Source: Actinomycetes bacterium
GTDB taxonomy: Bacteria; Actinomycetota; Acidimicrobiia; Acidimicrobiales; Ilumatobacteraceae
Assembly: GCA_025360105.1 (NCBI GenBank)
Contig: JANYCT010000081.1
Coordinates: 1 to 64,000, forward strand
Direction: 5' to 3'
Length of the DNA stretch: 64,000 bases
The position numbers and the translations under genes are program-made. The notes below the pieces were generated by a model. It saw only the letters and a program-made list of their open reading frames with translations, was not told the DNA's origin and did no database searches. How positions within the stretch are numbered: position 1 is the stretch's first letter; each line of letters begins with the position of its first letter. This document shows positions 58,071 through 59,050 of this stretch, piece by piece.

Positions 58071-58427
58071 CTAGCTCGCGACAAGGGTGTATGCGGGGTT
58101 GAGCATGATGCGCCGGCCGCGTTCTTCACGGGCAATGCCTTCGATGACCACGGCGCGGCCATGTTCGATGCCCTCGATGTGGCGTCGTCCGGTGAACACC
58201 GCAACGGCGTCTCCGGTGCCATCGGACAGCACTATCTCGAGCGCCGGGGTGCCCTGCCGGGGTGCGACCCGCATGCGCTTCACTTCTCCGCCGATGCGAG
58301 ACGAGATACGGCACTGCAACGCCACGATTGGCGTGAGGTCGAACGTTTCGAAGCGGGCCTTCAAACGTTCGGCGTCGAGTTCTTCGGGCTTGGTCTTCAA
58401 GCGGCTGGCGATGTCGCGCAGGCCCAT
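58071..58427 (-). CDS. OB-fold nucleic-acid-binding domain protein
   Basis: 118 residues. After a short helical start (MGLRDIASRLKTKPEELDAERL) comes an OB-fold: FDLTPIVALQCRISSRIGGEVKRM, TPALEIVLSDGTGDAVAVFTG, RRHIEGIEHGRAVVIEGIAR. The small domain resembles the protein encoded next to ceoC in mycobacteria, annotated as an OB-fold nucleic acid binding protein. Function unknown. Its ATG shares a base with the TGA of the thioredoxin-like gene upstream (TGATG), so it is translated together with it. Confidence 0.87.
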   Translation of the reverse strand: MGLRDIASRLKTKPEELDAERLKARFETFDLTPIVALQCRISSRIGGEVKRMRVAPRQGTPALEIVLSDGTGDAVAVFTGRRHIEGIEHGRAVVIEGIAREERGRRIMLNPAYTLVAS

Positions 58428-59050
58428 CAGTTGTTCCCCAGTGTTTCGGTCAGTGCCTTGTCGAGCACCGCAGGTTCCATCGCGCCAAGATAGGTCTTGG
58501 CGGTGCCCTGCGGCGAGACAAACACCCACGCGGGCTGAGCCGGCACACCGAAATGGGCGAAGAGGCTTCCGGTGCTGTCGTTCATGGTTGCGAAGGTGAT
58601 GCCGTGACGATTGATGAAGTCCTGCATCGATGCCTCACTGCCGTTCCATGCCACACCCACGATGGTGACCTTGCCAGCCCATTTCTTGTTGGTCGCCTCG
58701 ACCGAGGGAGCCTCACGGTTACAGATACTTCAAGTGGGTGCCCAGAACCAGAATGCCACGGGCTTCCCGGCGAACGACGCCGCATCGAGTTCGGAGCCAC
58801 CTACGAGCGGAGATGAGATCTGCAGGATGGCCGGAATGGCGGCGGGCTGGCCTGATGTGGCGGGAGCGGTACCGAGTGCCGATGAGGGTGTGGTCGCCGG
58901 AGGTGCCGCGTTCGCTGGCACAACTGTTGTCGATGTTGGCGACGGAACCGGTTTTGTTTCGGCGGCCGGTGACCCGACTGTGGCGGATGACCCGCACGAT
59001 GCCACGGCCAGAGCGGTGACGATCACGAGACCGAGGCGCACGCGAAGCAT
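58427..59050 (-). CDS. Thioredoxin-like lipoprotein, candidate selenoprotein with UxxC motif
   Basis: Read through TGA at 58730-58732 the gene gives 207 residues. Residues 1-19 are a lipoprotein signal with lipobox VASC (Cys19), 20-80 a Pro/Ala/Thr linker, then a TlpA/DsbE-like fold: VAFWFWAPT, the recoded position 107, SIC (Cys110), NREAPSVEATNKKWAG, VTIVGVAWNGSEASMQDF, GITFATMNDS and the cis-Pro segment FGVPAQPAWVFVSP. The TGA takes exactly the place of the first Cys of WAPxCxxC, as in mycobacterial Mpt53. Selenocysteine is the simplest reading; a TGC/TGT to TGA nonsense change is the alternative. It would be a membrane-tethered extracytoplasmic oxidoreductase. No selenium genes are in the window. 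Confidence 0.75.
58696..58707 (-). promoter_or_regulatory. Candidate SECIS-like hairpin downstream of the UGA
   Basis: In the mRNA, CCUC-GGUC-GAGG begins 23 nt after the UGA: a 4-bp stem with a loop starting with G. A competing fold is ACC-gu-GAGG-cuc-CCUC-GGU at 11-29 nt (58701-58719). Bacterial SECIS loops usually lie about 16-37 nt after the UGA with a G early in the loop, which the first structure meets. The stem is short. Confidence 0.35.

Follow-up and report, generated by a model that had tools for sequence, protein, structure and literature searches.

A gene on the minus strand of the window, the whole 64,000-nucleotide stretch of DNA analysed here, carries an in-frame UGA (positions 58732-58730) that is, with high confidence, predicted to be recoded as selenocysteine, a reading strongly supported by comparison with relatives. 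Judged from sequence, the product would be a genuine selenoprotein and probably a membrane-anchored thiol-disulfide reductase, a function that we infer. The 3.89 Mb draft genome in which the window forms contig C104 comprises 105 contigs and is rated 96.9% complete. The window gave no Rfam match at gathering scores, no tRNA by ARAGORN, and no megablast match against plasmids.

The gene, its fold and its predicted function

58427..59050, minus strand: candidate selenoprotein gene, with a signal/lipobox, a low-complexity linker and a DsbE/DsbF-like thioredoxin domain (translation, Pfam, sequence and fold search)
58991..59050, minus strand: predicted N-terminal signal with lipobox-like LAVASC (judged by eye)
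58430..58849, minus strand: thioredoxin-fold domain, used in the searches and the AlphaFold2 model
58730..58732, minus strand: in-frame UGA, codon 107, first residue of UxxC (U-S-I-C), putatively read as selenocysteine
58696..58707, minus strand: hairpin core CCUC[GGUC]GAGG, with a loop that begins 26 nt downstream of the UGA (comparison)
58692..58711, minus strand: extended hairpin region
58071..58427, minus strand: gene for an OB-fold protein, its start overlapping the stop of the candidate selenoprotein gene (TGATG)

The frame at 59050-58427 comprises 208 codons, among which codon 107 is the sole internal stop; counting that stop as one residue, the product has 207 residues. The preliminary description had placed the TGA where a thioredoxin-type CxxC motif has its first Cys, and translation bears this out: it lies between FWFWAPT and SICNREAPS, and the frame continues open on either side of it, downstream as far as the true stop (TGA 58429-58427). 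When the TGA is read as a residue, three Pfam matches span it, namely AhpC-TSA (48.5 bits, cut-off 26), Redoxin (46.5 bits, cut-off 26.6) and Thioredoxin_8 (28.8 bits, cut-off 27). Judged by eye, the N-terminus resembles a lipoprotein signal with LAVASC as a lipobox-like motif, and this by-eye pattern suggests that the protein is exported.

An AlphaFold2 model, made from 6 sequences with the UGA given as Cys (pLDDT 86.4), has as its nearest folds Mycobacterium tuberculosis DsbF (3ios, TM-score 0.89) and DsbE/Mpt53 (1lu4, 0.85), followed by ResA. The best sequence matches among solved structures agree with the fold search (3ios, 91.3 bits; 1lu4, 87.9 bits). The protein passes none of the models in NCBIfam release 20 and scores 50.1 bits against a cut-off of 170 for ResA and 28.6 bits against 123.15 for TIGR00385 (CcmG/DsbE). 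The TlpA/DsbE-like fold first proposed holds as thioredoxin-fold homology, but the actinobacterial DsbF/DsbE proteins (Mpt53) are nearer to it than CcmG/DsbE in the strict sense.

A TGATG coupling with the downstream OB-fold gene had also been pointed out. The overlap is present but looks local, since besides the window the gene and its overlap are kept only in loci L022, L023, L024 and L033, most other loci having short flanks (0.6-1.5 kb), and we rejected it as a functional clue. The other neighbours encode TrkA-type proteins, an amino acid permease and a dihydrolipoyl dehydrogenase. Because this neighbourhood offers no obvious gene to partner an exported thiol-disulfide enzyme, it is the fold that the functional assignment draws on.

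In thioredoxin chemistry, the residue replaced here is the attacking nucleophile. Selenocysteine would substitute for this nucleophilic N-terminal Cys of the CxxC motif, and the C-terminal Cys (of SIC) would resolve the selenenylsulfide. Outside the membrane, the exported, lipid-anchored protein would most likely reduce disulfides or oxidised thiols, presumably drawing electrons from a CcdA/DsbD-type membrane protein. Its own genome has two DsbD_TM matches over cut-off and no match to VKOR (the search for oxidases covered VKOR and not DsbB), which is why the assignment leans to a reductase fed through CcdA; we favour this direction with modest confidence. The selenoprotein might instead act as an exported thiol oxidase in protein folding, or as a peroxidase, which we regard as possible though somewhat doubtful. 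A thiol-oxidase role has been proposed for mycobacterial DsbE and DsbF, the closest structures to the present model, and the domain also matches the AhpC-TSA/Redoxin superfamily. The same DsbD_TM and VKOR results count against such a role, as does, for the oxidase, the low potential of a selenol, which favours reduction or peroxide removal.

Codon 107 in relatives and the selenocysteine machinery

Scanning species genomes brought up six relatives. The closest three, all actinobacterial metagenome-assembled genomes, have TGA at codon 107 and remain open to the end: L022 (78% identity), L023 (69%) and L024 (53% over a longer stretch, in a record titled Acidimicrobiaceae). An ordinary Cys in close relatives combined with decay of the gene, the pattern named beforehand as counting against a selenoprotein, is thus not what these three display. 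The remaining three relatives (L025-L027, from Rhizocola and two Nonomuraea, 33-38% identity) have Cys at this position; L026, from Nonomuraea aridisoli, also has an in-frame stop 82 aligned positions beyond the active site.

Matches were found in 209 of 298 genomes of an order-level sample (E 1e-10 or better) and in 57 of 396 genomes of a phylum-level sample (E 1e-14). The best-scoring 149 loci were fetched (30 loci and 80 regions from the order scan, 19 and 14 from the phylum scan, and 6 from the species scan), leaving out weaker and unlisted matches. They gave 161 tblastn placements over codon 107, with 129 TGA, 25 TGC, 5 TGT, no TAA or TAG, and two other codons that come from spurious alignments. 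The placements include the window's own copy (L028), a locus fetched twice (L032/L058) and a weak Cys alignment that is off target (L105); after filtering and removal of duplicates, 128 TGA and 28 Cys copies remain. Both UGA and Cys therefore occur at the position (129 TGA against 30 TGC or TGT), and TGA copies are also present in several actinobacterial families outside the order. Because the same codon recurs as TGA across relatives, a chance TGA at codon 107 is very unlikely, as had been supposed from the window alone. A tree of 156 sequences, with many forks unresolved, has about six changes between the TGA and Cys labels, at least three of them on well-supported branches, compared with a mean of 26 for shuffled labels.

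Several arrangements were observed among these copies. L032/L058 comprises tandem paralogues in one genome, one with Cys and one with UGA, and forms a natural Sec/Cys pair. L133 and L136, from two genomes and sisters on the tree, have UGA at both active-site positions (UPFU). Tandem pairs of UGA copies occur in six genomes of one genus, g44 (L101, L111, L113, L118, L122 and L123).

The search for selenocysteine machinery proposed in the preliminary description recovered three components in the window's own genome and a fragment of the fourth. The tRNA-Sec has the anticodon TCA and scores 64.3 bits (gathering score 47). selA (389 bits) adjoins selB (283 bits), whose product has an EF-Tu-type GTPase, the SelB beta-barrel and a C-terminal SelB winged-helix domain. 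Only the last 118 residues of selD are present, from base 1 of contig C14, where the contig end cuts the gene (82.9 bits, under the cut-off of 125); the front part of selD was not found in this draft assembly. In a same-family sample of 12 genomes, all nine other TGA-form genomes have selD over cut-off. Two members of that sample, G102 and G288, have no selA or tRNA-Sec match and no selD over cut-off; the listed homologue of G288 is stop-free, and the best match of G102 (1.6e-13) lies outside the matches listed. Two selD loci, L183 (in G211) and L184 (in G134), have one in-frame TGA and perhaps encode a Sec-containing SelD.

Other frames with an in-frame UGA were observed in the window's own genome. 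L144 (C25:149600-149878, minus strand), about 8 kb from the tRNA-Sec, is an AhpC/TSA-type, Prx-like frame with UGA in FLRHFG-U-VFC and a second candidate selenoprotein. L165 (C31:4654-4983) and L166 (C92:4494-4640, at a contig end) are AhpC/TSA-type frames with AWSS[YW]-U-GCR, and resemble the UGC-containing TlpA family that appears among the predicted prokaryotic selenoproteins in the part of PMC13188914 used here.

Across the order sample, selA or tRNA-Sec was found in 94 of the 95 genomes with a TGA-form copy among the matches listed (89 have both), in 10 of the 21 with only stop-free listed matches, and in 188 of all 298; the association is significant when related genomes are treated as independent (Fisher p 4.9e-9). 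The tally of 95 and 21 reflects stop status among the matches listed, with codon 107 checked on fetched loci in 83 of the 95, the other 12 being G035, G051, G087, G096, G098, G106, G121, G158, G178, G191, G208 and G229. Six weak selA matches were dropped, and the stop-free genomes are not all confirmed Cys genomes and may hold an unlisted UGA copy. The one exception, G170, has UGA-bearing homologues (L125 and L132) and neither a selA nor a tRNA-Sec match; this genome is 83% complete in 520 contigs, and perhaps only the sequence carrying the machinery is missing.

These data also bear on whether UGA is decoded throughout the genome as Trp, Gly or Cys, or read through by a near-cognate tRNA. The frame open on either side of the TGA would agree with such decoding, but TGA is also the stop at the end of this gene and of its counterparts in L022, L023, L024, L029, L032, L033 and L034 (TAA terminates L025 and L035, and TAG terminates L030 and L031). 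Further in-frame stops are few in the aligned stretch of the order-level copies (L064, L069, L133, L136 and the end of L026, with one in L037), and tRNA-Sec and selA track the UGA form. Both genome-wide recoding, which we rejected, and simple read-through are highly improbable.

The hairpin downstream of the UGA

The putative bSECIS-like element spans UGA+25 to +36, where four base pairs enclose a GGUC loop. In the bSECIS model of PMC13188914, a stem of at least 4 bp carries a small loop with G in the first two loop positions, 16-37 nt downstream of the UGA, a geometry that the window hairpin shares. The legend of Fig. 2 in that paper gives a minimum free energy (MFE) of -7.5 kcal/mol or lower, and the window is weaker than this, at -5.8 kcal/mol for the 20-nt fold and -4.4 kcal/mol for the hairpin alone, with only four clean pairs. 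Longer stretches of the window reach -7.5 kcal/mol, but as a different fold; in the 56-nt MFE structure the hairpin is absent, and the energy is no better than that of shuffles (z 0.09). The 20-nt MFE of relatives is -16.2 kcal/mol for L023 and L024, -9.9 for L031, -8.0 for L029, -7.5 for L030 and -7.0 for L022, and the outer pairs, partly lost in the window copy, form in several of them (e.g., L023, L024 and L029-L031). The hairpin signal appears only in comparison, not in single-sequence folding of the window.

Among 106 UGA copies of the order-level set, the GGUC loop is present in 86 and all four pairs in 73. Core pairing is 0.81, whereas 1000 column shuffles give 0.65 (maximum 0.69) and sliding the 3' side gives no more than 0.67. 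Thirteen stem or loop variants occur, including two-sided changes of the stem (CCUC/GAGG, CUGC/GCAG, CGGC/GCCG, GUGC/GCAC and CCAC/GUGG). In the g44 tandem UGA copies the common hairpin is missing, with at most one of its four core pairs formed (0 or 1).

Against a synonymous-codon null, which preserves the protein while ignoring how the sequences are related, the specific hairpin is found in 77 of 128 UGA copies (null mean 26.3, maximum 41 in 500 runs). The other 51 copies are without it, and the element therefore varies or another register is used. None of 28 Cys copies has the specific hairpin (own null 0.1), which is weak evidence because their protein sequence already brings the null close to zero. 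With the looser published geometry, some hairpin is found in 124 of the 128 UGA copies (null 83.7, maximum 94), while the Cys copies stay at their null (17 of 28 against 17.1). MFE z-scores under the synonymous null are modest for the UGA forms, at -0.66, -0.59 and -0.76 in the three stretches nearest the UGA (controls -0.24 to 0.14); the Cys forms give 0.07 to -0.29 near the position, and -0.6 and -0.67 in two control stretches elsewhere in the gene. The Cys sets differ in filtering, with 15 sequences in the column-pairing test and 28 in the null test, and distant TlpA-like proteins are present in each.

A chance TGA in a decaying or misread Cys gene, whether pseudogene or sequencing error, would fit a draft assembly of 105 contigs and the weakness of the window hairpin; it is nevertheless very improbable, and we rejected it, given that the TGA recurs in placements from many genomes and in the independent close relatives L022, L023 and L024, the frame is open on either side, the hairpin exceeds its null and the Sec machinery is present. 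The same machinery, relatives and hairpin support the selenoprotein reading with which the preliminary description began. SelA and SelD would charge the tRNA-Sec, and SelB, on the hairpin with its GGUC apical loop 26 nt downstream, would deliver the Sec-tRNA to UGA 58732-58730.

Comparison with known thioredoxin-fold proteins

The WFWxPxCxxC, EAP and QPA segments of DsbF (3ios) and DsbE/Mpt53 (1lu4) align with the window protein, with identities in the fold alignment of 38% and 34%, respectively; the Pro of the QPA segment is presumably the cis-Pro. Both proteins have Cys at the first active-site position, where the window protein has a Sec codon. Because UxxC replaces CxxC, the window protein is better described as a Sec relative of the Cys-type DsbE/DsbF proteins than as a full member. 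ResA and CcmG share its fold (TM about 0.84 for ResA and 0.81 for CcmG 1kng) but have Cys rather than Sec, and the window protein scores far under their NCBIfam cut-offs.

UxxC redoxin, Prx-like and thiol-disulfide isomerase-like selenoproteins are catalogued in Table 1 of PMC13188914 and in the part of PMC2398784 used here. Sec in the UxxC motif of the catalogued PF08534, PF00578 or cd02966/COG0526 proteins is a sequence prediction in the relevant part of PMC13188914, and the window domain likewise passes the PF08534 and PF00578 cut-offs. That part of the paper does not describe an exported actinobacterial DsbE/DsbF-like subfamily, although the comparison is by description and its examples may include the branch. 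Term searches of PMC5029168 and PMC12013277 returned no passage on an exported DsbE/DsbF-like selenoprotein, and none is named in the titles and abstract openings of the papers listed by the literature searches.

It seems somewhat probable to us that Sec, not Cys, is the default in an exported DsbE/DsbF-like lipoprotein family spanning many genomes of the order and other actinobacterial families, duplicated in several and UxxU in two, and that extracytoplasmic disulfide exchange there is selenium-dependent. Where recoding goes unrecognised, gene callers break such genes in two at the UGA or omit them, so that a widespread selenoprotein branch may be hidden. If true, exported disulfide chemistry would join the uses of selenium in actinobacteria that are known mostly from draft and metagenome assemblies, and closely related Sec and Cys copies would permit a direct test of the benefit of Sec at the active site. 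UxxC thioredoxin-fold selenoproteins are already known; what looks to be new is a DsbE/DsbF-like actinobacterial branch in which, on the loci examined, UGA is the commoner form.
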